64,000 bases of DNA from Antarctobacter heliothermus (GTDB taxonomy: Bacteria > Pseudomonadota > Alphaproteobacteria > Rhodobacterales > Rhodobacteraceae). This document shows positions 16,287 through 33,235 of this stretch, piece by piece. The position numbers were made by a program, and so were the translations under genes. A model generated the notes under the pieces. It ran no database searches, was not told the origin of the DNA, and saw only the letters and a program-made list of their open reading frames with translations. The stretch is from contig NZ_CP022540.1 in assembly GCF_002237555.1 (NCBI RefSeq), positions 2,178,501-2,242,500 of the forward strand, given 5' to 3'. Positions within the stretch are counted from its first letter, which is position 1. Every line of letters begins with the position of its first letter.

Positions 16287-19259
16287 TCAGTTTCCTTCCA
16301 TCGTCAGCGCTTCGTTCACGAGCGCCTCTTGCTGTGCTTTGTGCTGGCTGGCCAGACCCGTCGCAGGGCTGGCCGATGTGGCGCGGCCCACATAACGCGG
16401 GCGCGGGTGGTCGGCCTTGATACGGCCAAGGACCCATTCGATATTGGGTTCGATAAAGCTCCATGCGCCCTGGTTCTTGGGCTCTTCCTGACACCAGAGC
16501 ATTTCTGCGCCCTTGAACCGTTCCAGTTCCTTCACAAGGCTGATCGCCGGGAAGGGATAGAACTGTTCGACCCGCAGCAAATAGATGTCGTCGATGCCGC
16601 GCGCGTCGCGTTCCTCCAGCAGGTCGTAATAGACCTTGCCCGAACACATCACCACGCGCTTGATCTTGTCGTCAGCCACCAGCTTGGTGTCGCTCTCGCC
16701 CGATTCCGCGCTGTCCCACAACACGCGGTGGAACGACGATCCGCCGGTGAAATCCTTGGCGGTCGACACGCACAATTTATGCCGCAGCAGCGACTTGGGC
16801 GTCATCAGGATCAGCGGCTTGCGGAAGGTCCGGTGCAGCTGGCGGCGCATGATGTGGAAATAGTTGGCGGGCGTCGAACAGTTCGCCACGATCCAGTTGT
16901 CCTGACCGCAGGCCTGCAGGAACCGCTCCAGCCGCGCTGAGGAGTGTTCCGGCCCCTGACCCTCAAACCCGTGCGGCAGCAGGCAGACAAGGCCCGACAT
17001 CCGCAACCATTTCGATTCACCCGAAGAGATGAACTGGTCGAACATGATCTGCGCACCGTTGGCAAAGTCACCAAACTGCGCCTCCCAAAGGGTCAGCGCG
17101 TTGGGCTCTGCCAGCGAATAGCCGTATTCAAAACCCAGCACCGCATATTCCGACAGCGCACTGTCGATCACCTCAAAACGGGCCTGCCCCTCGCGGATAT
17201 TGTTGAGAGGATAGTACCGCTCTTCGGTCTCTTGGTTGATAAAGGCCGAATGCCGCTGCGAGAACGTGCCGCGCGTGCTGTCCTGACCGGACAGACGCAC
17301 CGGATACCCTTCGAGCTGCAGCGACCCAAAGGCCAGCGACTCGGCAGTGGCCCAGTCAAACCCTTCGCCGGTCTCGAACATCTTGGCGCGGGTATCGATC
17401 AGGCGGCCCACGGTGCGGTGGATCGGAAAGCCGTCCGGCACCCGTGTCAGCGCATTGCCGATGTCCTTCATCGCCTCTTTGGACAATGAGGTTTTGCCGC
17501 GCTGGTATTTGCCCTCTTTCTGCTTGTCCAGATGGGACCAACGGCCATCCAGCCAGTCCGCCTTGTTGGGGCGATAGACTTTGCCGGCCTCGAATTCCTC
17601 GTTCAGCTGCGCCTGAAACGAGGCCTTCATGTCCTCGATCTCGCCCTCGGGGATCAACCCGTCCTTGACCAGACGTTCGGTGTACAAGGTCAGCGTGGTC
17701 TTATGCTTCTTGATCTTGTTGTACATCATCGGGTTGGTGAACATGGGCTCATCGCCCTCGTTGTGACCAAACCGGCGGTAGCAGAAGATATCCAGCACCA
17801 CGTCCTTGCCAAACTTCTGGCGGAACTCGGTCGCAACCTTGGCGGCATGCACCACGGCCTCCGGGTCATCGCCGTTGACGTGGAAAATCGGCGCCTCGAC
17901 CACCAGCGCATTGTCGGTGGGATAGGGCGAGGACCGCGAAAAGTGCGGCGCGGTGGTAAAGCCGATCTGGTTGTTCACCACGATATGCATGGTGCCGCCG
18001 GTGCGGTGGCCGCGCAGACCCGACAGGGCGAAACATTCCGCCACAACACCCTGACCGGCAAAGGCCGCGTCGCCGTGCAGCAGGATCGGCATGACCTGTG
18101 TGCGGTTCGTGTCGTTTAGCTGGTCCTGTTTGGCGCGGACCTTGCCCAGAACGACCGGGTTCACCGCCTCCAGGTGGCTGGGGTTGGCGGTCAGTGACAG
18201 GTGTACGTTATTGCCGTCAAACTCTCGGTCCGATGAGGCACCAAGGTGGTACTTCACGTCGCCCGACCCATCGACATCCTCAGGCTTAAAGCTGCCGCCC
18301 TGAAATTCGTTGAAGATTGCCTTGTAGGGTTTGTTCATGACGTTCGCCAGAACAGACAAGCGGCCCCGGTGGGGCATCCCGATGATGATTTCCTTGATGC
18401 CAAGGTTGCCACCGCGCTTGATGATCTGTTCCATCGCGGGGATCAGGCTTTCGCCGCCATCAAGGCCGAACCGCTTGGTTCCCATGTATTTCACATGCAG
18501 GAACTTCTCGAACCCTTCGGCCTCGACCATCTTGTTCAGGATTGCCTTGCGGCCTTCGCGGGTGAATTTGACCTCTTTGCCAAAGCCCTCGATCCGCTCT
18601 TTCAGCCAGCTTGCCTGCTCAGGGTCGGAAATATGCATGTACTGCAGGGCAAAGGTGCCGCAATAGGTGCGCCGGATGATCGAGAGGATCTCACGCAGGC
18701 TTGCGATCTGCAGGCCCAGCACGTTGTCGATAAAGATCGGCCGGTCCATGTCGGCCTCGGTAAAGCCATAGGACTTCGGGTCCAACTCCGGGTGGTTCGA
18801 GGTGTCACGCAGGCCCAGCGGGTCCAGATCGGCGGCCAGATGGCCCCGGATGCGGAACGCGCGGATGATCATCAACGCGCGGATGCTGTCCAGAACGGCG
18901 CGCTGGATCGCCTCGTCACTGACGGTGACGCCCTTGGCCTCGGCCTTGTCCTTGATCTTTTTGGCGGCGCCTTTGGCCTCTGCCGGAACGGCGGGCATCG
19001 GCCATTCGCCAGTCAGCGCGCCGGTCAGATCATCGTCAGGCTGCGGCGGCCAGTCTTTGCGCGCCCAACTGGGGCCCTGCGCCTCTTTCTGCACGTCCAT
19101 GTCGGCGTCGCCAAGCTGGCTGAAAAACGCGGCCCATGCGTCATCGACTGCGTTCGGATCGGCCGCATAGCGGGCATACATCTGTTCAAGGTATTCCGCG
19201 TTGTGCCCCTGCATGAAACTAGAGGCGTGAAACAGGTCGTTGGGGCTTTGGTCGGTCAT
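16287..19259 (-). CDS. sucA: 2-oxoglutarate dehydrogenase E1
   Basis: 990 residues, slightly longer than the E. coli enzyme. The thiamine-diphosphate E1 decarboxylates 2-oxoglutarate and hands succinyl to SucB. Visible landmarks are the N-terminal [40 protein letters not shown] (about 304-321), the [20 protein letters not shown] region, and [20 protein letters not shown] precedes the ATG by 7 nt. A 541-bp spacer separates it from sucD, holding a 16-bp palindrome and a weak 91-codon frame that ends in ATGA over this start. Confidence 0.96.
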
Positions 19260-19800: not shown

Positions 19801-20682
19801 TTAGCCGATGGCCTTCAGCACGGCCTCACCCAGCGTCGCGGGGCTGTCGGCGACCACGATGCCAGCCTCTTTCATGGCCTCGATCTTGCTCTCTGCATCG
19901 CCCTTGCCGCCGGCAACAATCGCGCCCGCGTGGCCCATGCGACGTCCCGGAGGGGCGGTGCGGCCCGCGATAAAGCCAGCCGTCGGCTTCCAACGGCCCT
20001 TCTTGCGCTCATCGGCCAGAAACTGCGCCGCTTCTTCTTCGGCAGAGCCACCGATCTCACCGATCATGATGATCGACTGGGTCTCATCGTCGGCCAGGAA
20101 CATCTCCAGCACGTCGATATGCTCGGTCCCTTTGATCGGGTCGCCACCGATGCCCACGGCCGTCGATTGACCCAGACCGATGTCAGCGGTCTGCTTGACC
20201 GCCTCATAGGTGAGCGTGCCCGAACGCGAGACCACACCAACGCTGCCACGCTTGTGGATGTGACCGGGCATGATGCCGATCTTGCAGGCGTCAGGCGTGA
20301 TGACACCGGGGCAGTTCGGGCCGATCAGACGGCTCTTGCTGCCTTCCAGCGCGCGCTTGACCTTCATCATGTCCAGCACCGGGATGCCTTCGGTGATGCA
20401 GATGATCAGCTCCATCTCGGCGTCGATCGCCTCAAGGATCGAGTCGCCCGCGAAAGGCGGCGGCACATAGATCACAGAGGCGTTCGCCTCGGTCACGGCT
20501 TTGGCCTCATGCACCGAGTTGAAGACCGGCAGGTCCAGATGGGTCTGCCCACCTTTGCCGGGCGTCACGCCGCCAACCATCTTGGTGCCGTAGGCGATCG
20601 CCTGTTCAGTGTGAAAAGTGCCCTGCGAGCCGGTGAGGCCCTGACAGATGACTTTGGTGTTTTCGTCTACGAGGACGGCCAT
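19801..20682 (-). CDS. sucD: Succinyl-CoA synthetase, alpha subunit
   Basis: 293 residues, full length. The CoA-binding Rossmann domain includes [22 protein letters not shown] (about 11-32) and [11 protein letters not shown] (about 120-130). The phosphorylated active-site histidine lies in [13 protein letters not shown] (about 246-258). With SucC it interconverts succinyl-CoA and succinate with substrate-level phosphorylation. AGGAAAG precedes the ATG. It belongs to the minus-strand suc block but is separated from sucC by a sulfotransferase-like gene. Confidence 0.96.
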
Positions 20683-20782: not shown

Positions 20783-21667
20783 TCATCGCCCCGCCTCCGG
20801 TCCCGCCGCCCAATTCCGGAATTCCGTCCGGCGGTCGGCGAAAAAGGTACTTTCGACCCAGCTCATGTCGTCAGCATTGAGCTGAGAGATCTTTTCACGG
20901 GTCTGCGCTGACAAGGCGGGGCGCTTCGGTGCGCGTGACCAAGGCGTCATGCGAGCGCGGAACGATGTATTTACACGTTTCGACCGCGAAGGCAGAGTTC
21001 CGGCGGGTAGACCGAGCACCGTCTGGAAATCCGTGATCAACCCGCCACCGTCGAGCCAACTTTCGTCAAAAAGGCGCACGTCCAGCGCATCTTGTCCGAC
21101 GGCAGAGCGCCACAAATCCAGCAGACGGGCAAAAGGCGCCGGGCCAAAGCGATCAACAAAGGCAGTCAACTCTTCGGCACTGGCAGTCTTGCGCAGCTGG
21201 TGGCCGAACAAGCTGACCAGCCATGTTTCCGGGCGACGAACATAGGCGACATAACGCACGTTCCCAAAAAGACCCGACAACCATTCTGCCAGTGCTGAAA
21301 TCGCTTCGGGGGTCATGAAGCGAGACACCAGTGCCTCGCTGGACCCGACCCAAGTTGTGAAACCACCGTTTGCAACCTGTGCCTCGAACTGTTCGCGAAA
21401 CGCATGTGCAACCGCATCCTGAGCGACGCGGTCCCCCTCCGGTATGCCCAGAACCGCGTTCATCGGTCGGCTGGGCACTGGCTGACCCGCAAGGGTAAAG
21501 GCCAGTACCTGCAGGTGGGGGTTGGTGCAGACCACGTCGGTCCGTGGATCCATCCTGCGATACCAGATGCTGCGCGCCAGCAATGCGTCCTCCTGCGCGC
21601 CCAACCATTGTTGAAGCGCGGTCGAGCCACATTTGTTGAAGCCGATATGTAGAATTGCGTCTGGCAT
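20783..21667 (-). CDS. Sulfotransferase-like P-loop protein between sucC and sucD
   Basis: 294 residues. The N-terminus [19 protein letters not shown] (about 4-22) is the 5'-phosphosulfate P-loop pattern of bacterial sulfotransferase-like proteins, and [20 protein letters not shown] (about 134-153) fits the second, 3'-phosphate-binding block (R and S). Such proteins may sulfate cell-surface glycans or other acceptors using PAPS; this one's substrate is unknown. It is on the same strand as its neighbours, 55 bp after sucC. It resembles the gene at 33255 inside the sdh operon in its P-loop and following segment. Confidence 0.72.
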
Positions 21668-21722: not shown

Positions 21723-22916
21723 TTACCCTTTGACCGCTTTCACGATCTTCTCGGCGCCATCTGACAGATTGTCAGCCGCGATGACGTTCAGCCCAGAGGT
21801 CGAGATGATCTCTTTGCCCTTCTCCACATTGGTGCCTTCAAGGCGCACAACCAGCGGAACCTGCAGGCCGACCTCTTTGACCGCGGCGATCACGCCCTCG
21901 GCAATGACGTCGCAGCGCATGATGCCGCCGAAGATGTTGACCAGAATGCCTTTGACCTGCGGGTCAGAGGTGATGATCTTGAACGCCTCAGTGACCTTTT
22001 CCTTGGTGGCGCCACCGCCCACGTCGAGGAAGTTGGCAGGCTCCGCGCCGTACAGCTTGATGATGTCCATCGTCGCCATGGCAAGGCCCGCGCCGTTGAC
22101 CATGCAACCGATTTCGCCGTCGAGAGCGATATAGTTGAGGTCGTACTTGGACGCCTCCAATTCCTTGGAGTCCTCTTCAGATGTGTCGCGCAGTTCGGCG
22201 ATATCGGCGTGACGGTAGATCGCGTTGCCGTCAAAGCTCATCTTGGCGTCGAGGCATTTCAGGTCGCCCGTGTCAGTCACGATCAGCGGGTTGATCTCCA
22301 GCATCTCGACGTCTTTTTCGACAAAGATCTGGTACAGCGTACCCATCAGCGCGACGCACTGTTTGACCTGCTTGCCGGTCAGACCAAGGTTGAAGGCAAT
22401 GCGGCGACCGTGGAACGCCTGATACCCAGTGGCCGGGTCAACGCTGAACGACAGGATCTTTTCGGGGGTCGACTCGGCGACCTCTTCGATGTCCATGCCG
22501 CCCTCGGTCGAGGCAACAAACGACACTCGGCTGGTCTGACGATCGACCAGCAGGGCAAGGTAGAGTTCGGTCTCGATGCCAGAGCCGTCTTCGATGTAGA
22601 TCCGGTTGACCTGCTTGCCGACGTCGCCGGTCTGCTTGGTCACAAGGGTGCGGCCCAGCATACGCTTGGCCTCCATCTCGGCTTCCTCAACCGATTTGGC
22701 GAGGCGCACGCCGCCCTTTTCGCCTGCATCGGCTTCTTTGAAAGAGCCCTTGCCGCGGCCACCAGCGTGGATCTGCGCCTTGACCACCCAAAGCGGGCCG
22801 TCAAGCGCGCCAGCTGCGGTTTTTGCCTCTTCGGCTTTGAGAACGACGCGGCCGTCCGAGACAGGTGCCCCGTAGCTGCGAAGTAGGGCCTTGGCCTGGT
22901 ATTCGTGGATGTTCAT
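21723..22916 (-). CDS. sucC: Succinyl-CoA synthetase, beta subunit
   Basis: 397 residues, normal length. The ATP-grasp domain starts [19 protein letters not shown] and includes [16 protein letters not shown] (about 44-59). [21 protein letters not shown] lies near 199-219, and the nucleotide-proximal FLDVGGGA and [10 protein letters not shown] motifs lie near 264 and 294-303. It partners SucD. It is the first gene of its unit: the 187-bp upstream gap carries the TGTGATCACA pair 112 nt before the start, so this operon probably has its own regulated promoter. Confidence 0.96.
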
Positions 22917-23028
22917 GGGTCGACTGTCCCCGTTTTGCTGCGGATTTGCCCTACCTATTCAGGGTCTGGCGCGGGTTTGAACCGCTATTTTGCCGCATGG
23001 GCGGTTTCGGGGGTAGGTTTCCGACATT

Positions 23029-23059
23029 TGTGATCACACCCCCGAAAGCTGTGATCACA
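23029..23059 (-). promoter_or_regulatory. Paired TGTGATCACA operator upstream of sucC
   Basis: Two identical 10-bp palindromes TGTGATCACA (23029-23038 and 23050-23059) have centres exactly 21 bp apart, two helical turns. The nearer one ends 112 nt before the sucC ATG. The same pair, with the same spacing, occurs upstream of sdhC at 30435-30465. Read toward the gene, the proximal copies share GTGTGATCACAAA plus ATGT. The regulator is not identified. Confidence 0.7.
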
Positions 23060-23103
23060 AATTAATCAAGGCTTGTATGCAAAGTGATTCGCGGTGAGCG
23101 CTA

Positions 23104-24297
23104 TCAGTTTAGCCAGACCATGAAGAGAAGGGCATCACCGCGGAACATCTGTTCAAACCGGCGCAGATTGCCGTCGTCCACAAGTGGCCCCTGTTCCATG
23201 TAGGGCAGCAGGCCATTGCCATGAACCCATGTCACGATGTCCACCGGAATGGGGGCCTGCAACAGTCGCGCAACATTGACCCCCGCTGCCGGTTCGACGC
23301 GCCAATGGGGTACCAGCAAGCGCCCCTCCAAAAGACCTTCGGCATCATCCAGGACCTTCATCCACACGGGGCCGGCGTCCTCGGGCAATTCGATGCCCAA
23401 GGCCGAGATCTGCCCAGCCCCAGGAATCCACTCGCGGTCGTTGTCGGTCTCCAGCGCCAGAAGATCCCAGAACCGTCGGTTTTGGGCGACCATGGCCAGC
23501 AGGTTTTCCCGCATGGCGCGGGTATGCGCTGGGTCCGGTTGCCGGTTCAGCGCGCCATAGAACATCGAAAATGTGTCGATCCAGCTTTCGAACCCACGCA
23601 GATAGCTGTGACGGGTGTTCGGCTGCGCGCCCCTCAGATCGGACATGGCATCAATGCTCTGGCTGACATCGGCGATGACCTCGGTTGGGTCAAACGCAAG
23701 GACGACATCGGTAATCGCCTCCAGCAGGTGAGTGTAGGCCGTCAACCATGCGGCATCCGCCGTATCAAACCGAACCACCAGACTGTTCAGATCACTCTGC
23801 GGCGCGGCGCGGCCAAAGGCAGCACGGGCGGCGGACATCAGACCCTCACCCTTATCCCGTGCGCCGTTTTCATTGATGTCGAACCAGACGCGTGTCAGGT
23901 CAAGGATCACACCAAAATCGCCCTGCACGTTAGTCAGCACGGCGCGCGCACCCTGCATGTCCGTACCAAGGTCGCGGAACAGATCGGTCACCAAGCCGGG
24001 GTAAAAGGGCGTGGCCTCAGGATTTGCGGGCAAGGGCAGCCGCAACACTGGCAGGTCCAATTTCCCGAAATCGGCATTGTGGCGATAGCGTAGTTGCAGC
24101 GTCTTTTCGATACCACGCAGGAACAGCACGCCGCCCAGGGCAAAGTCGCGCCCCGGGCTGGGTTGATCGTTTTCCAACGCCACGATCGTGTCCGTCAATC
24201 CGACACTTGAAACAAGCGGTGTCAGATCGATGTCCTGCGCGGCAGCAACGCTTGCCGTAAAGGTCAGGGCCAATAAGCTCTTGCGAAATAGCATCAT
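23104..24297 (-). CDS. Hypothetical secreted protein downstream of mdh
   Basis: 397 residues with a probable signal peptide (MMLFRKSLLALTFTASVAAAQ, cut near residue 21). The rest is soluble, with VWFDINENGARDKGEG (about 125-140) resembling an EF-hand or dockerin-type calcium loop, and no other recognisable domain. Similar roseobacter proteins are annotated as hypothetical. The start (ATG at 24297 or 24294) follows only three bases behind the T run of the mdh terminator and has no ribosome site, so it may be expressed by read-through or from a promoter inside mdh. The cellular role is unknown. Confidence 0.75.
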   Translation of the reverse strand: MMLFRKSLLALTFTASVAAAQDIDLTPLVSSVGLTDTIVALENDQPSPGRDFALGGVLFLRGIEKTLQLRYRHNADFGKLDLPVLRLPLPANPEATPFYPGLVTDLFRDLGTDMQGARAVLTNVQGDFGVILDLTRVWFDINENGARDKGEGLMSAARAAFGRAAPQSDLNSLVVRFDTADAAWLTAYTHLLEAITDVVLAFDPTEVIADVSQSIDAMSDLRGAQPNTRHSYLRGFESWIDTFSMFYGALNRQPDPAHTRAMRENLLAMVAQNRRFWDLLALETDNDREWIPGAGQISALGIELPEDAGPVWMKVLDDAEGLLEGRLLVPHWRVEPAAGVNVARLLQAPIPVDIVTWVHGNGLLPYMEQGPLVDDGNLRRFEQMFRGDALLFMVWLN

Positions 24298-24299
24298 GG

Positions 24300-24327
24300 A
24301 AAAAAGAATGCGCGCCCGAGGGCGCGC
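24300..24327 (-). terminator. Rho-independent terminator after mdh
   Basis: On the minus strand GCGCGCC pairs with GGCGCGC (24327-24321 and 24316-24310) around a CTCG loop, then ATTC and six T. It starts 30 nt after the mdh stop. Confidence 0.85.
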
Positions 24328-24356
24328 AATCAAGTATTTCAAATCGGCGGCAGCGT

Positions 24357-26234
<1,878 letters not shown>

Positions 26235-26300
26235 CACGGAAAGAACCGGAGCAGGTGTTTCAGGAACCGATCCTTCTGCGAAAAACCGGTTCCATGTCGA

Positions 26301-26621
26301 TCACGCATCGTCCCCCTTGGCAGGCAGCGCCTCGGCCAGTTCCTCAAACGCCTGACCGCTGGCGACAAGGCAGGTGATGCCATTGGCCATAGTCACGGTG
26401 ATGGTCCATGATCCAGAGTCGGGTGAGGCAAAAACCTCCATCACCGCATTGTTTGCGCCAAGGCCCATGCTTTGCCGGGTTTCACCGAACTTGGCGGCCA
26501 GTCTGTCGACCACCTCGTCGCGTGGGGCGCAGTGGCGCAGGTTCTGCGCCTCGACAATGTTGGCCGCGCCCAGCAGTAAGCCTGCCGCAAGCAGCGTCAG
26601 CTTGAAATATTTCTCCGTCAT
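26301..26621 (-). CDS. Small secreted hypothetical protein
   Basis: 106 residues. A signal peptide (KLTLLAAGLLLGAANIVEAQ, cut near residue 26) is followed by a compact domain with two cysteines (CAPRDEVVDRLAAKFGETRQ and GITCLVASGQ) that may form a disulfide, and a polar tail. Alphaproteobacterial proteins of this length and pattern are common and uncharacterised. AAAGGTGA precedes the ATG at 26621. It is convergent with the TauE-like gene. The 325 bp between it and the malyl-CoA thioesterase gene hold divergent promoters (a TTGACA at 26834) but no gene that I can support. Confidence 0.72.
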   Translation of the reverse strand: MTEKYFKLTLLAAGLLLGAANIVEAQNLRHCAPRDEVVDRLAAKFGETRQSMGLGANNAVMEVFASPDSGSWTITVTMANGITCLVASGQAFEELAEALPAKGDDA

Positions 26622-26946
26622 AGTGTCACCTTTCGGCTGCGCGCCGGGCCGATCTGGCGGATTGTCCGCAAGCCCGACACAGGGAATGTCCCCTCTGATC
26701 CGGGGCACCATCCTTGTGGCCTTATTGCCCCGTTGCCGCGTTCAACGACATGTCCCGATAGTCCGCTTGAGGCCGCTTAAAACAAGTTAACGCACCGCGC
26801 GTTGCATCGAATCCGCTAGGTTCGGTAGTCGGTTTGACACAAAAATACGCTGGTATTCTGCGGTGCGGCGTATTCGACCTTGAATTATCCGGCAAAAAAT
26901 GCGCATCTCCGCGCAACAAAATTTCGCCCCGTCAAGGGGGGCTTAG

Positions 26947-27807
26947 ATGGAGACCCCAATGGACCTGCGCGCGCGCCCTTACCGATCCGTTCTCTACATT
27001 CCCGGCTCCAAGGAGCGGGCGTTGGAAAAGGCCCGCGCCCTGCCCATCGACGCCATCATCTTTGACCTCGAGGACGCGGTTGCGCCGGGAGAAAAGACCG
27101 CCGCCCGCGAAACGCTGGCAGAAGCGCTGTCGCGCCCCTATGGCAATCGCACGCGCATCGTGCGCATCAACGGTTTCGACACCGAATGGGGAGAGGCGGA
27201 CGCCCGCGCCGCGGCAGCGATGGACTGCGATGCGATCCTGTTGCCCAAGGTAGAAACCACAGCACAGCTTGATGTGTTGGCTGCTCTAACGGACAAGCCG
27301 CTTTGGGCAATGATGGAAACCCCAATGGGTATGATGAACGCGGGCCAGATTGCCGCGCATCCGCGCCTGCAGGGGATGGTTATGGGGACCAACGATCTTG
27401 CCAAGGATCTTAATTCCCGTTTTCGCGCCGACCGCCTGCCGATGCTAACCGGGCTGGGGCTGTGCGTGCTGGCGGCCAAAGCCCACGGCGTCACCATCGT
27501 TGACGGTGTGTACAACGCATTCAAGGACGATGAGGGCTTGCAGGCCGAATGCGTCCAGGGACGTGATTTGGGTATGGACGGCAAAACCCTGATTCACCCG
27601 GCACAGGTCGAGATTGCCAATGCGGCCTTCGCCCCCGGGACGGATGAGATCGACCTCGCCCGCCGCCAGATCGATGCGTTCGAAGAGGCCGCCAAGGCCG
27701 GGCAGGGAGTTGCTGTGGTCGACGGAAAGATCGTCGAAAACCTACACGTTGAAACCGCCCGAAAAATGCTTGCCAAGGCCGAAGCCATTGCGGCTTTGGC
27801 TGAATAA
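26947..27807 (+). CDS. mcl2: (3S)-malyl-CoA thioesterase (CitE/Mcl2-like)
   Basis: 286 residues of the HpcH/HpaI-CitE barrel family, with DAIIFDLEDAVAPGEK (about 38-53; Asp/Glu for magnesium), RIVRINGFDTEW (about 73-84) and LWAMMETPMGMMNA (about 119-132). The length and the opening YRSVLYIPGSKERALEKA fit the Mcl2 thioesterase of Rhodobacter, which splits (3S)-malyl-CoA to malate, better than the longer Mcl1 lyase (about 318 residues). It serves the end of the ethylmalonyl-CoA pathway. ATG at 26947 follows AAGGGGGG; ATG at 26959 following GGAG is an alternative. Confidence 0.85.
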   Translation: METPMDLRARPYRSVLYIPGSKERALEKARALPIDAIIFDLEDAVAPGEKTAARETLAEALSRPYGNRTRIVRINGFDTEWGEADARAAAAMDCDAILLPKVETTAQLDVLAALTDKPLWAMMETPMGMMNAGQIAAHPRLQGMVMGTNDLAKDLNSRFRADRLPMLTGLGLCVLAAKAHGVTIVDGVYNAFKDDEGLQAECVQGRDLGMDGKTLIHPAQVEIANAAFAPGTDEIDLARRQIDAFEEAAKAGQGVAVVDGKIVENLHVETARKMLAKAEAIAALAE

Positions 27808-27840
27808 ACGCAGGTTCACGCCGAAACCATGGAGGCCAAT

Positions 27841-28386
27841 ATGCTGCTATTGATTCTCGGCGTCGCGCTCTGGTGGGGCGCGCATTTGTTCAAGCGGGTC
27901 GCTCCCGGTGTGCGCGCACCCATGGGCGACAAGGGCAAGGGCGTTGTGGCGCTGGCGATCGTTGTCAGTATCGTCCTGATGATCTTTGGCTACCGGATGG
28001 CGGACGGCGCCTTTTTCTGGGGACGTCACCCGGCCACCGTTGGCATCAACAACCTGATCATGATCTTCGCCCTGTACCTGACTTCACCGGGACCGTCCAA
28101 GGGGGCGCTGTTCTACAAGATGCGCCACCCGATGCTGACCGGCTTTTTCCTGTGGACCGTGGCGCACCTGTTGGTGAACGGCGACGTCCCCAGTTTTGTC
28201 CTCTTTGGGGGGCTGGGTGTCTGGGCGCTGGTGGAAATGGCAGTGATCAACCGGGCAGAGCCGCACTGGACGCCGAATTCCAAAGGCGCGATCAAGAAGG
28301 ATGCGATCTTTTTGGCTGCCTCTGTCGTATTGCTGGCGGTGATCGGCTATATTCATGGCCTTCTCGGCTATCCGGCCTTTGGATAA
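27841..28386 (+). CDS. NnrU family membrane protein
   Basis: 181 residues with about five hydrophobic helices and the NnrU pattern WWGAHLFKRVAPGVRAP (about 11-27) and KMRHPMLTGFFLWTVAHLL (about 94-112). NnrU-like proteins were first linked to nitrite and nitric oxide metabolism, but relatives (isoprenoid O-methyltransferase-like fold) are widespread and of unclear function. I start at ATG 27841 because GGAGG lies directly before it, inside the alternative ATG at 27829. It follows the malyl-CoA thioesterase by 33 nt and precedes a DUF1737 gene by 4 nt, so it is within the ethylmalonyl-CoA operon. Confidence 0.8.
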   Translation: MLLLILGVALWWGAHLFKRVAPGVRAPMGDKGKGVVALAIVVSIVLMIFGYRMADGAFFWGRHPATVGINNLIMIFALYLTSPGPSKGALFYKMRHPMLTGFFLWTVAHLLVNGDVPSFVLFGGLGVWALVEMAVINRAEPHWTPNSKGAIKKDAIFLAASVVLLAVIGYIHGLLGYPAFG

Positions 28387-28390
28387 GCCA

Positions 28391-28594
28391 GTGAAACTGT
28401 ATCGTTTCCTGTCGAGCGACGACACTTCTGCATTTTGCCACAAGGTCACCGCCGCGCTGAACGCTGGATGGGATCTACACGGCGGGCCGACCTATGCGTT
28501 TGACGCCGCCAACGGCGTCATGCGCTGCGGTCAGGCGGTGGTCAAGGATGCCCCCGGCACCTATTCCCCCGACATCAAGCTTGGAGAACAGTGA
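28391..28594 (+). CDS. DUF1737 small protein
   Basis: 67 residues, starting at GTG 28391 (KLYRFLSSDDTSAFCHKVTAALNAGWDLHG). The pattern of aromatic residues and GW-LHG-PTYAFD is typical of the DUF1737 family of small cytoplasmic proteins with no known function. It lies 4 nt after the NnrU gene and 3 nt before the mesaconyl-CoA hydratase gene, so all are surely cotranscribed. Whether it assists an enzyme here is unknown. Confidence 0.8.
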   Translation: MKLYRFLSSDDTSAFCHKVTAALNAGWDLHGGPTYAFDAANGVMRCGQAVVKDAPGTYSPDIKLGEQ

Positions 28595-28597
28595 CAC

Positions 28598-29626
28598 ATG
28601 GCAAAGACCAATCCGGGCCGGTTTTTCGAAGACTATACCGTGGGCGAAGTCATAGATCATGCCGTACCGCGCACCATCTCGGGCGGAGAGCGGGCGCTGT
28701 ATCACGCGCTCTACCCGATGCGGCACGCGCTTTATTCGTCCGATGAATTTGCGCGCGACTGCGGATTGTCTGCGGCCCCCATCGACGACCTTGCCGCGTT
28801 TCACATCGTCTTTGGCAAGACGGTCCCGGATGTCTCGTTGAATGCCGTTGCCAACCTTGGCTATGCCGAGGGGCGCTGGCTAAAGCCGGTCTGGCAGGGG
28901 GATACGATCCGGTCGCAATCCGAGGTGATCGGGGTCAAGCAGAACTCCAACGGACGCACCGGCGTGGTTTACGTTCGCTCACGCGGACTCAACCAGCGGG
29001 ATGAGGTAGTCATGGAATATGCGCGCTGGGTCATGCTGCGCAAACGAGACATGGACGCACCCGCCCCTGAGACAGTCATCCCCGAGTTGAAGAAAAGCCT
29101 TGAACCGTCCGACCTTGTGATCCCCGACGGACTGGATTTTTCCAGTTACGATTTCACACTCGCGGGGGAAAAACATCGCCTGTCGCACTACGAAGTTGGT
29201 GAAACCATCGACCATGTCGATGGCGTCACCATCGAAGAAGCCGAACACATGATGGCAACGCGGCTGTGGCAGAACACTTCAAAGGTGCATTTCGACATCA
29301 CAGCGCGCCCGGACCAACGTCTGATCTATGGCGGGCACGTCATTTCGATGGCGCGGGCGCTGTCATTCAATGGTCTTGCCAATGCGCAGATCATCGCTGG
29401 CCTGAATGGCGGCGCACATGCCAACCCCTGCCTTGCTGGCAACACGATCAAGGCGTGGTCAGAAGTGCTGGATAAGGCCGAAACCGCAGCCCCCGGTGTC
29501 GGTGCAATCCGCCTGCGGCTGGTCGCAACCAAAGGCGGCGCGCCGTTCGAGTTGAAGGGGCCGGATGGCAAGTATTTGCCGGACGTGCTGCTGGATCTGG
29601 ATTATTGGGCGTTGATGCCGGTCTGA
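28598..29626 (+). CDS. mch: Mesaconyl-CoA hydratase
   Basis: 342 residues with two hot-dog (MaoC-like) halves: GRFFEDYTVGEVIDHAVPRTISGGERALY (about 7-35) and HYEVGETIDHVDGVTIEEAEHMMATRLWQNTSKVHFD (about 198-234), the double-domain form known for Rhodobacter Mch. It hydrates mesaconyl-C1-CoA to β-methylmalyl-CoA in the ethylmalonyl-CoA pathway. The genes ecm and ccrA of the same pathway are in this window at 38.5 and 42.4 kb. The malyl-CoA thioesterase upstream in the same operon handles the later step, which supports the assignment. Confidence 0.93.
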   Translation: MAKTNPGRFFEDYTVGEVIDHAVPRTISGGERALYHALYPMRHALYSSDEFARDCGLSAAPIDDLAAFHIVFGKTVPDVSLNAVANLGYAEGRWLKPVWQGDTIRSQSEVIGVKQNSNGRTGVVYVRSRGLNQRDEVVMEYARWVMLRKRDMDAPAPETVIPELKKSLEPSDLVIPDGLDFSSYDFTLAGEKHRLSHYEVGETIDHVDGVTIEEAEHMMATRLWQNTSKVHFDITARPDQRLIYGGHVISMARALSFNGLANAQIIAGLNGGAHANPCLAGNTIKAWSEVLDKAETAAPGVGAIRLRLVATKGGAPFELKGPDGKYLPDVLLDLDYWALMPV

Positions 29627-29754
29627 GCCGGACCAATTAGCGGGCCTACCTTATCTCGGACCAAGTGAAAGCACCCGGTGTCTGTGGGGGAGGCTGCTGC
29701 CATGTCACCTTGACGTGACTTGCGTGCCGACGTCGGTCACGCTCTGTTTGAGCC

Positions 29755-30426
29755 ATGCGCCTTTGTTTGGTCATCGCCTTCTGTCTATTGCCCGCGCGTC
29801 TGATCGCCTGCGAGGTTGCACTGGTCTTGTCGGTTGATGTTTCGGGGTCGGTGGATACACAGGAATATGACATCCAGATGCAGGGGGTGGCCCAAGCGCT
29901 GCGCGACAGTGCCGTGGCCGAGGCGTTGATCCGGGGGCGTGCGCAGGTGGCGCTGGTGCAATGGACCGGCAGTTCACGCCAGCAGGTGACACTGCCATGG
30001 CAAGAGGTCCGCAGCTTTGCCGATACCCGTGCACTGGCCGATGAAGTGGCCAACGCCCCGCGCGCCTGGCGGCATTATTCGACTGCCATCGGAGAGGCGC
30101 TGCGTGTCTCCGCCAACCTGTTCGACAGCGTTCCACATTGTCTTCGCCGGGTGATCGACCTGTCCGGTGACGGCGTGTCCAATGAGGGGGTACCTCCGGC
30201 CGTGCTACGCGCGGACTTTGGTCAACGGGGAATTATCGTGAACGCGCTGGCCATCGAAGGCGCGCAGGCGGGCGATCTCACCGCCTATTTCTTTGAAAAC
30301 GTCATCGTTGGCTCCGGTGCCTTTGTCGCTACAGCAAACAGTTATGCCGAGTATCCCGACAGAATCCGTCAAAAACTCTTGCGTGAGTTGACCAAACAGA
30401 CAGCGGGAACACAGCGCGTACGTTAG
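29755..30426 (+). CDS. DUF1194 (VWA-like) secreted protein
   Basis: 223 residues with a signal peptide (MRLCLVIAFCLLPARLIAC, about 1-19) followed by a von Willebrand A-like fold beginning EVALVLSVDVSGSVD, where DVSGS is the metal-ion-dependent adhesion motif. HYSTAIGEAL and IDLSGDGVSNEG are its other conserved strands. DUF1194 proteins are periplasmic or secreted and uncharacterised. The cysteine at about residue 19 sits near the cleavage site but lacks a proper lipobox. It stands alone between mch and the sdh operon. Confidence 0.85.
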   Translation: MRLCLVIAFCLLPARLIACEVALVLSVDVSGSVDTQEYDIQMQGVAQALRDSAVAEALIRGRAQVALVQWTGSSRQQVTLPWQEVRSFADTRALADEVANAPRAWRHYSTAIGEALRVSANLFDSVPHCLRRVIDLSGDGVSNEGVPPAVLRADFGQRGIIVNALAIEGAQAGDLTAYFFENVIVGSGAFVATANSYAEYPDRIRQKLLRELTKQTAGTQRVR

Positions 30427-30434
30427 CGCGAAAC

Positions 30435-30465
30435 TGTGATCACACACTCCGAGTGTGTGATCACA
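30435..30465 (+). promoter_or_regulatory. Paired TGTGATCACA operator upstream of sdhC
   Basis: Two identical palindromes TGTGATCACA (30435-30444 and 30456-30465), centres 21 bp apart, end 117 nt before the sdhC ATG. This is the same motif, spacing and distance as upstream of sucC. These four sites are the only copies I found in the window. Confidence 0.7.
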
Positions 30466-30582
30466 AAATGTGAAAATCCCACCAGTTGCGCCAAAAAACC
30501 GCAGGATTAACGGGGCCACCCCCGTGACACGCCGCGTGAAAGAAGTAGAACAAGAGGCAACGGACCCGAAAGGACATCATCC

Positions 30583-30966
30583 ATGGCCGACGTGAACCGG
30601 GGCAATCGCCCACTCTCTCCGCATCTGCAGGTGTATCGCCCGCAGCTTACCTCGATTTCCTCAATCCTCACCCGCATTACCGGCAATGCGCTGTTGCTGG
30701 CCGCGCTGATGATAGTCTGGTGGTTCCTCGCTGCGGCGACCTCGCCAGAGTACTTCGCAACCGCAGACGCAGTTGTGCGTTCATGGTTTGGCGATCTGGT
30801 GATGCTAGGCTCTGTCTGGGCGATCTGGTATCACCTGCTGGCTGGTGTGCGTCACATGATCTGGGACGAGGCCAAGATGCTCGAGATCGACTCCGCCGAA
30901 ATGCTGGGGTGGGGTGTGATCATCGGCTCTGTCCTGCTGACCCTCTTTACCATCATCGTTGTCTGA
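30583..30966 (+). CDS. sdhC: Succinate dehydrogenase cytochrome b556 subunit
   Basis: 127 residues with the SdhC opening RPLSPHLQVYRPQLTSISSILTRITGNAL (about 7-35) and three transmembrane helices (about 30-52, 66-90 and 103-126). The heme-ligand histidine lies in WYHLLAGVRHMIWD (about 85-98), which is the second SdhC signature. It anchors SdhAB and helps form the ubiquinone site. It is the first gene of sdhCDA-B, 13 nt before sdhD. Confidence 0.93.
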   Translation: MADVNRGNRPLSPHLQVYRPQLTSISSILTRITGNALLLAALMIVWWFLAAATSPEYFATADAVVRSWFGDLVMLGSVWAIWYHLLAGVRHMIWDEAKMLEIDSAEMLGWGVIIGSVLLTLFTIIVV

Positions 30967-31432: not shown

Positions 31433-33235
31433 ATGGCAGCATACGAATACGAGACGCATGATTATGACGTCGTGGTCGTCGGGGCCGGGGGCGCAGGGCT
31501 GCGCGCCACGCTCGGCATGGCGGAACAAGGGCTGCGCACCGCATGCGTGACCAAAGTATTCCCGACACGTTCGCACACCGTCGCCGCCCAAGGCGGCATC
31601 GCGGCCTCGCTGTCGAACATGGGTCCCGATCACTGGCAGTGGCACATGTACGACACGGTCAAGGGCTCCGACTGGCTGGGTGATACCGACGCAATGGAGT
31701 ACCTCGCGCGTGAGGCGCCCAAGGCTGTCTATGAATTGGAGCATTACGGTGTTCCATTCAGCCGCACCGAAGAGGGCAAGATCTATCAGCGTCCCTTCGG
31801 CGGTCACACCACCGAATTTGGCGAAGGCCCGCCCGTGCAGCGCACTTGCGCCGCCGCGGACCGCACCGGCCACGCAATCCTGCACACGCTTTATGGCCAG
31901 TCGCTGAAGAACAACGCCGAGTTCTACATCGAATACTTTGCCATCGACCTTTTGATGGAAGATGGTGTCTGCAAAGGTGTTCTCTGCTGGAAGTTGGACG
32001 ACGGCACCTTCCACGTCTTCAACGCCAAAATGGTGGTGCTAGCGACCGGCGGCTATGGTCGTGCTTATTTCTCTGCCACATCGGCGCACACCTGCACCGG
32101 CGACGGTGGTGGTATGGTGGCCCGCGCGGGGCTGCCGCTTCAGGACATGGAATTTGTTCAGTTCCACCCCACCGGCATCTACGGTTCCGGCTGCCTGATC
32201 ACCGAAGGTGCGCGCGGCGAAGGCGGCTACCTCACCAACTCCGAAGGTGAGCGTTTCATGGAACGCTACGCCCCGACATACAAAGACCTCGCGCCGCGCG
32301 ACTATGTCTCGCGCTCCATGACCATGGAAATCCGCGAAGGTCGCGGTGTGGGTTCAGAAGGCGATCACATCCACCTGAACCTGTCGCACCTGCCCGCAGA
32401 GGCATTGGCCGAACGCCTGCCCGGCATTTCGGAAAGTGCCAAGATCTTTGCTGGTGTCGACGTGACCAAGGAACCGATCCCGGTTCTGCCGACGGTCCAC
32501 TACAACATGGGCGGCATTCCCACGAACTACTGGGGTGAGGTGTTGAACCCGACCGAGGGCGATTCCAACGCCGTTGTTCCTGGCCTGATGGCCGTGGGCG
32601 AGGCAGGCTGCGCAAGCGTCCACGGGGCCAACCGCCTTGGATCAAACTCGCTGATTGACCTAGTGGTCTTTGGCCGTGCAGCCGCGATCCGCGCCGGGAA
32701 GGTTGTCGACCCCGAAACCGCTGTGCCAACAGCGCCCAAAGATCAGATCGAAAAAGCCTTTGACCGCTTTGACGGCATCCGCAACGCGGACGGTGGAACG
32801 CCCACCGCCGAACTGCGGCTGGAAATGCAGAAGACCATGCAGCGCGACGCCGCCGTTTTCCGGACCGCCAAGACCATGGCCGAGGGTGTCGAGGCGATGA
32901 CCGCCATCGCTGGCAAGATGGATGACATCAAAGTCACCGATCGGAGCCTTGTCTGGAACTCGGACCTGATGGAAAGCCTTGAGCTGACCAACTTGATGCC
33001 CAACGCACTGGCAACCATCGTCGGGGCCGAAGCGCGCAAGGAAAGCCGCGGCGCGCACGCGCATGAAGATTTCTCGACCCGCGACGATGAAAACTGGCGC
33101 GTGCACACCATCGCCCGGGTCGACGGCAACAAGGTCGATCTCAGCCATCGACCGGTTGTCGTAGATCCTCTGTCAACCGAAGAGCAGGGCGGTATCTCGC
33201 TCCAGAGGATCGCGCCCAAGGCACGGACCTTCTGA
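31433..33235 (+). CDS. sdhA: Succinate dehydrogenase flavoprotein subunit
   Basis: 600 residues, full length. The FAD-binding [17 protein letters not shown] (about 18-34) is followed by [15 protein letters not shown] (about 44-58), whose histidine carries the covalent flavin. [26 protein letters not shown] (about 242-267) holds active-site residues, and [14 protein letters not shown] (about 396-409) closes the FAD domain. It oxidises succinate to fumarate on the cytoplasmic face. The sdhB gene does not follow directly; three small genes lie in between. Confidence 0.97.

Follow-up and report, generated by a model that had tools for sequence, protein, structure and literature searches.

Phased palindrome pairs upstream of the suc and sdh operons of Antarctobacter heliothermus as predicted operators of the GntR regulator AkgR

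Results

Two phased palindrome pairs precede sucC and sdhC

The subject of this analysis is a 64-kb stretch of the Antarctobacter heliothermus genome (the window), in which the 10-bp palindrome TGTGATCACA stands as one pair upstream of the sucC operon and one pair upstream of the sdh operon (Table 1), and which we read as containing predicted operators of AkgR, a regulator of the GntR family. The palindrome occurs four times in the window, with no further copy there; shuffled windows held a mean of 0.05 copies, and in 100 shuffles a count of four never came up. In both pairs the spacer is 11 bp, so that the centres lie 21 bp apart, and the proximal site is separated from the start codon by 112 nt at sucC (ATG at 22916, minus strand) and by 117 nt at sdhC (ATG at 30583). 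A preliminary description of the window had given the same positions, spacing and distances, and in these it was correct. It had also claimed that the two proximal sites share GTGTGATCACAAA and a following ATGT; the first part stands, whereas what follows is TGT at sucC and ATGT at sdhC.

The whole A. heliothermus genome (5.33 Mb) holds 11 exact copies of the palindrome, and the seven outside the window all fall within long reading frames, which were named by eye as SCO1-like, thiolase-like, acetyl-CoA synthetase-like (two), maleylacetoacetate isomerase-like, SelD-like and PEP-utilising-enzyme-like. Genome-wide, no exact pair with a spacer of 0 to 30 was found besides the sucC and sdhC loci, and neither was any pair with an 11-bp spacer in which no more than 3 of the 20 specified bases are mismatched. 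Thus the outcome that the preliminary description had named as damaging, pairs scattered near unrelated genes, is not seen in A. heliothermus. This survey covered exact palindromes and pairs; since lone mismatched sites fell outside its scope, the AkgR regulon of A. heliothermus may have further members. In the thiolase-like gene the exact palindrome (L002 1501-1510) begins 11 nt after the ATG, and because of this position it may have a regulatory role there.

Table 1. Predicted operators and genes of the suc and sdh operons, in window coordinates
Feature	Position	Strand	Remarks
Distal AkgR operator (predicted), sucC operon	23050..23059	-	exact TGTGATCACA; counterparts in relatives
Proximal AkgR operator (predicted), sucC operon	23029..23038	-	exact TGTGATCACA; 21 bp centre-to-centre; 112 nt to ATG
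Inferred sucC promoter	22954..22984	-	-35-like CGGTTC (22984-22979), -10-like TGAATAGG (22961-22954); inference from relatives
sucC, succinate-CoA ligase beta subunit	21723..22916	-	NCBIfam PRK00696, over cut-off
sucD, succinate-CoA ligase alpha subunit	19801..20682	-	Pfam CoA_binding, Ligase_CoA; presumed in sucC operon
sucA, 2-oxoglutarate dehydrogenase E1	16287..19259	-	NCBIfam PRK09404; presumed in sucC operon
Distal AkgR operator (predicted), sdh operon	30435..30444	+	exact TGTGATCACA
Proximal AkgR operator (predicted), sdh operon	30456..30465	+	exact TGTGATCACA; 21 bp centre-to-centre; 117 nt to ATG
sdhC, succinate dehydrogenase cytochrome b556 subunit	30583..30966	+	NCBIfam TIGR02970, over cut-off
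sdhA, succinate dehydrogenase flavoprotein	31433..33235	+	Pfam FAD_binding_2, Succ_DH_flav_C

The pairs recur throughout the family

In a sample of 295 genomes of the family, one per genus, we searched for exact pairs with a spacer of 0 to 30, using the reversed pattern as control. The pair was present in 188 genomes and the control pattern in none. Places were listed for 116 of these 188 genomes, giving 145 exact pairs, with a spacer of 11 in 128, of 10 in 12 and of another length in 5. From the family, 101 pair loci were fetched, a non-random sample made up of the best-listed and some chosen ones, and sucC or sdhC lies downstream of the pair in 96. They comprise 60 distinct sucC promoters and 32 distinct sdhC promoters; when third sites are counted in, 100 pair sequences are distinct. 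As for the other five loci, two pairs precede sucA, and no sucC was found adjoining the pair in those genomes; one precedes lpd and one a TauE-like gene; and the last, which has 3 mismatches, belongs to a genome without akgR and has none of the reference suc, sdh and mdh genes nearby. The pair is therefore conserved upstream of orthologous suc and sdh operons in relatives, which is the check that the preliminary description had proposed.

Comparing the promoters between genomes, the sites are 91-97% identical, a figure that owes something to selection because the sites were found by pattern, while identity is only 26-36% in the spacer, in the 20 bp upstream and over most of the sequence downstream. 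The two bases after the proximal site reach 87% at sucC and 44% at sdhC, and the inferred -35 region 45% and 30%, respectively. Since the promoters have diverged outside the sites, the retention of the pairs is not accounted for by recent common descent. A third site in the same 21-bp register is found in G125, G177 and G222 and at the sucC locus of G197 (L018). Pairs with other spacers are of a more mixed kind: those at G125:C6 (spacers of 5 bp and 17 bp) and at G081:C1 (14 bp) are enclosed by long reading frames, and that at G061:C169 (12 bp) lies just beyond an oxidoreductase-like frame near the contig end, all as judged by eye, and the exact pair preceding the TauE-like gene (G136:C8; L180 1001-1041) has a spacer of 21 bp, which places the centres 31 bp, or about three turns, apart.

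A wider sample of the class, with 5 genomes of the family and 380 from outside it, gave exact pairs in 4 of the 5 and in 3 of the 380 (spacers 12, 14 and 12). One of the outside pairs, spaced by 14 bp, is flanked by genes for an FCD-GntR protein and an aldehyde dehydrogenase (L207), and a second adjoins a class-III aminotransferase gene. Other FCD-GntR proteins may share the palindrome core.

A GntR regulator accompanies the pairs

The preliminary description had placed the regulator outside the window, and the candidate found here is indeed encoded 1.9 Mb away, at G000:C1:291518-292162 (G000 being the A. heliothermus genome). This genome has 30 FCD matches, and these were compared with 30 taken from seven small genomes that bear pairs, of which G236 is 85% and G033 74% complete. 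A single match, L070, had a reciprocal best hit in every one of the seven (48-77% identity); the next best reached three. In three of the seven small genomes (G090, G033 and G136) its counterpart lies less than 9 kb from the suc pair. The protein (P0001) has a GntR domain (PF00392) and an FCD domain (PF07729), both above cut-off, and its best sequence relative with a solved structure is E. coli McbR (PDB 4p9f; E 3.5e-20). Judged from these comparisons, L070 is probably the regulator of the pairs. From regulon and motif it is probably also the orthologue of AkgR of Rhodobacter sphaeroides, and we call it akgR.

FCD domains usually have an Asp-and-His metal site. Residues N136, H140, H183 and D205 of P0001 are invariant across 37 aligned orthologues, in an alignment that includes at least one paralogue read in the wrong frame (L053). 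Two of the metal-site positions seem to be taken by Asn and Asp instead, and the effector site of P0001 may thus be unusual.

The presence of akgR predicts the pair. With the orthologue threshold at E 1e-58, set after the next best match had been seen at 3e-47, akgR is present in 268 of the 295 family genomes. An exact pair was found in 184 of the 268 genomes with akgR and in 4 of the 27 without it (Fisher p 6e-8, tabulated by hand); for genomes of 90% completeness or more and no more than 5% contamination the counts are 168/240 and 2/20 (p 1.5e-7), and these p values are only a guide because the genomes share kinship. The four exceptions, G019, G256, G264 and G273, have real suc or sdh pairs and no akgR, and are drafts 91, 93, 77 and 73% complete. 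An exact pair is lacking in 107 genomes. A relaxed search, for pairs within 3 mismatches anywhere in the genome, covered 75 of these, each at least 97% complete (the remaining 32 are mostly less complete, but G248 is 99%). Such pairs appeared in 58 of 61 genomes with akgR and in 2 of 14 without it; the reversed pattern gave 0 of 76, and positions of the relaxed pairs were checked at fetched loci only. The pair of G209, a genome without akgR, looks like a chance match. In the class sample akgR was found, at the same threshold, in all 5 family genomes and in none of the 380 others.

The palindrome in the akgR promoter and the position of the sucC promoter

The palindrome also stands just before the start codon of akgR itself. 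In 37 distinct loci, which are the 30 best matches to the G000 protein and those of the 7 small genomes, it is exact in 31, has one mismatch in 5 and two mismatches in 1. It starts 12 nt after TTGAC in 28 of the 37 and at a gap of 10, 11, 13 or 14 in 5, with no exact TTGAC in the other 4. Given the usual promoter spacing, the akgR palindrome would overlap the -10 region.

The arrangement at sucC is different in position. An expectation-maximisation search, free of position, was run on the sucC promoters of 44 relatives with leaders of 105-112 nt. In 41 of these a -35-like CCGTTT lies 43-45 nt after the proximal site, with a weaker -10-like element 16-18 nt beyond it. A repeat search placed 40 of the 44 in one 3-bp window, against 4 to 9 of 44 in 20 shuffled sets. 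If transcription starts 7 nt after the -10 element, the centre of the proximal site would be near -88 and that of the distal site near -109, too far upstream for a direct block of polymerase.

Neighbouring genes

Between the two operons, at 26947-29626, the window holds genes for an HpcH/HpaI lyase and a mesaconyl-CoA hydratase-like protein, both candidates for the ethylmalonyl-CoA pathway; no copy of TGTGATCACA lies in this interval. No Pfam match was obtained for two long minus-strand frames, 20783-21667 between sucC and sucD and 23104-24543 between mdh and sucC. The sdh pair starts 9 bp past the end of a DUF1194 frame.

Discussion

Taken together, the findings make it probable that the two pairs are AkgR operators, acting in upstream activation of suc and sdh, with autorepression at akgR. 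The sequence itself shows the sites, their spacing and recurrence, the co-occurrence of pairs with akgR and the copy in the promoter of that gene; literature passages supply the term activator, the motif and the regulon prediction. As to mechanism, AkgR would be encoded in trans and one dimer would bind each palindrome. At sucC, two AkgR dimers would then share one face of the helix at a distance of 21 bp, lying ~88 and ~109 bp ahead of the inferred start, and such phased, probably cooperative binding would jointly activate the suc and sdh operons. The lone site over the akgR promoter would close that promoter when occupied, resulting in autorepression. In this scheme we infer the dimer binding, the cooperativity, the positions relative to the transcription start and the autorepression. 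The idea of the preliminary description that one regulator with phased palindromic sites coordinates both operons is probably right, and its view of a dimeric protein that binds cooperatively to one DNA face is plausible. A broader proposal, to which we would give a little less than even weight, is that the operator grammar is family-wide: phased doublets, or at times triplets, far upstream activate cooperatively, a lone copy at the regulator's own promoter provides negative feedback, and the number and position of the sites, not their sequence, set the sign. Even where genes are rearranged, the activating element would keep its place before the leading gene of the suc, sdh, odh or lpd operon.

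Several points weigh against AkgR as the activator acting through these pairs. In A. heliothermus the case is built from sequence and literature passages, and only FCD-type regulators were screened as candidates. The akgR site of A. heliothermus is CGTGATCACA, with one mismatch, and the sucC -35 and -10 elements there are poor matches, the promoter being read from relatives. At sdhC, a scan of 30380-30600 gave no sigma-70 match, and the sdhC leaders are less uniform than those of sucC. Three genomes (G009, G201 and G286) have akgR and no pair within 3 mismatches; conversely G114, which is 100% complete in 320 contigs, has pairs at 1-2 mismatches and a best akgR match no better than 6e-30, and is a real exception, since its pair precedes sucC (L143). 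An FCD-GntR paralogue in A. heliothermus (L062) has CGTGATCACG ~77 nt before its ATG (L062 position 2199; G000:C1, about 2387667), so that cross-binding between the AkgR sites and this paralogue is possible; this is also a hint that paralogues share the operator core. Orthology to AkgR of R. sphaeroides rests on the regulon and the motif, the 80 named loci used in the akgR comparison including no R. sphaeroides record, and AkgR is the regulator that we take to be RSP_0981. Finally, passages of PMC4344238 predict CceR and NtrC at sdh as well.

The alternative closest to activation by AkgR keeps the same regulator and inverts the sign. GntR proteins are mostly repressors, and AkgR might likewise bind the doublets as a repressor of suc and sdh that is lifted by a metabolite; the lone akgR site does look repressive. 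However, the sucC doublet lies ~43 bp upstream of the inferred -35 element in 41 of the 44 relatives, where it would not block polymerase directly, and the passages of PMC6365646 term AkgR an activator. We consider repression at the doublets unlikely. It is more unlikely still that the pairs belong to another regulator, be it the paralogue at L062, with CGTGATCACG upstream of its gene, or a protein of another family. Outside the family, FCD-GntR relatives (37-39% identity) occur in 2 of the 3 pair-bearing genomes, as this alternative would have it. Yet L062 has reciprocal best hits in 1 of the 7 small pair-bearing genomes against 7 of 7 for L070, and it is akgR whose presence predicts the pair, within a screen that covered the FCD group.

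The two remaining explanations, each of which we regard as scarcely credible, do not involve a GntR protein. The half sites TGTGA and TCACA recall those of CRP and FNR, but CRP sites need a 6-bp spacer between the arms. At all four sites the arms touch, as the preliminary description had pointed out, and sites of the form TGTGA-N6-TCACA were rejected on this ground. The position of the sdh pair, 9 bp past the end of the DUF1194 frame, would suit a transcript terminator hairpin, but no terminator-like site was found in 30380-30600, a scan made on the sdh side and not on the sucC side. Chance repeats would have to account for a fourfold occurrence that no shuffle reached and for exact pairs in 188 of 295 genera against none for the reversed pattern. 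Chance was rejected on the shuffles, the genome-wide pair search and the recurrence in the family, and terminators on the sdh-side scan.

If the pairs are indeed AkgR operators, an anonymous repeat becomes a testable switch on three neighbouring activities of the tricarboxylic acid (TCA) cycle in a large bacterial family. They would also offer a clean natural case in which the same operator forms a phased doublet at the targets and stands alone at the gene of the regulator itself.

Comparison with known systems

An AkgR regulon of R. sphaeroides was reportedly treated by Imam et al. (mBio, 2015). The preliminary description knew of no described regulon of this kind, a statement that the AkgR literature leaves unsupported: passages of PMC4344238 predict control of sucCD, sdh and odh (2-oxoglutarate dehydrogenase) by the GntR regulator RSP_0981, and those of PMC6365646 list GTGATCAC among the AkgR binding sites and term AkgR an activator. 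A. heliothermus resembles this regulon, so far as the passages describe it, in having a GntR/FCD regulator and the operator core GTGATCAC, and in its predicted targets, with pairs before sucC and sdhC and with sucD and sucA downstream of sucC on the same strand, operon structure being assumed. What differs from the described passages is the pairing at a 21-bp pitch, the occasional triplets and the site at the akgR promoter.

Other systems are more remote. PS417_07240, which according to PMC6365646 is 32% identical to AkgR, has the GTGATCAC palindrome core proposed at deoxyribonate clusters; in the passages at hand its site belongs to a catabolic cluster and lies at -47 to -40 relative to its own start codon, unlike the doublets. 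CceR (RSP_1663, LacI family) resembles AkgR in its predicted control of TCA genes, including sdh, in R. sphaeroides, but the motif given in the passages of PMC4344238 is GTT-N6-8-AAC, an inverted repeat that the palindrome itself does not fit, the flanks not having been scanned for it. E. coli McbR is a distant relative of the akgR protein only, and the likeness to CRP is confined to the TGTGA and TCACA arms.

Among the papers listed by the literature searches, no description of the paired architecture was found, the primary AkgR paper, figures and supplements lying outside their reach, and because of this the novelty of the paired layout is unproven; the passages of PMC11323563, PMC4419725, PMC7471390, PMC5507952 and PMC8557541 say nothing of it. 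Publications containing the 10-mer itself deal, by their titles, with plants, animals, human cells and pollutant degradation. A known regulon is thus extended rather than a new one opened: what we describe looks like the AkgR regulon in a further genome, and the paired layout, conserved across the family, is the part of it that looks new.

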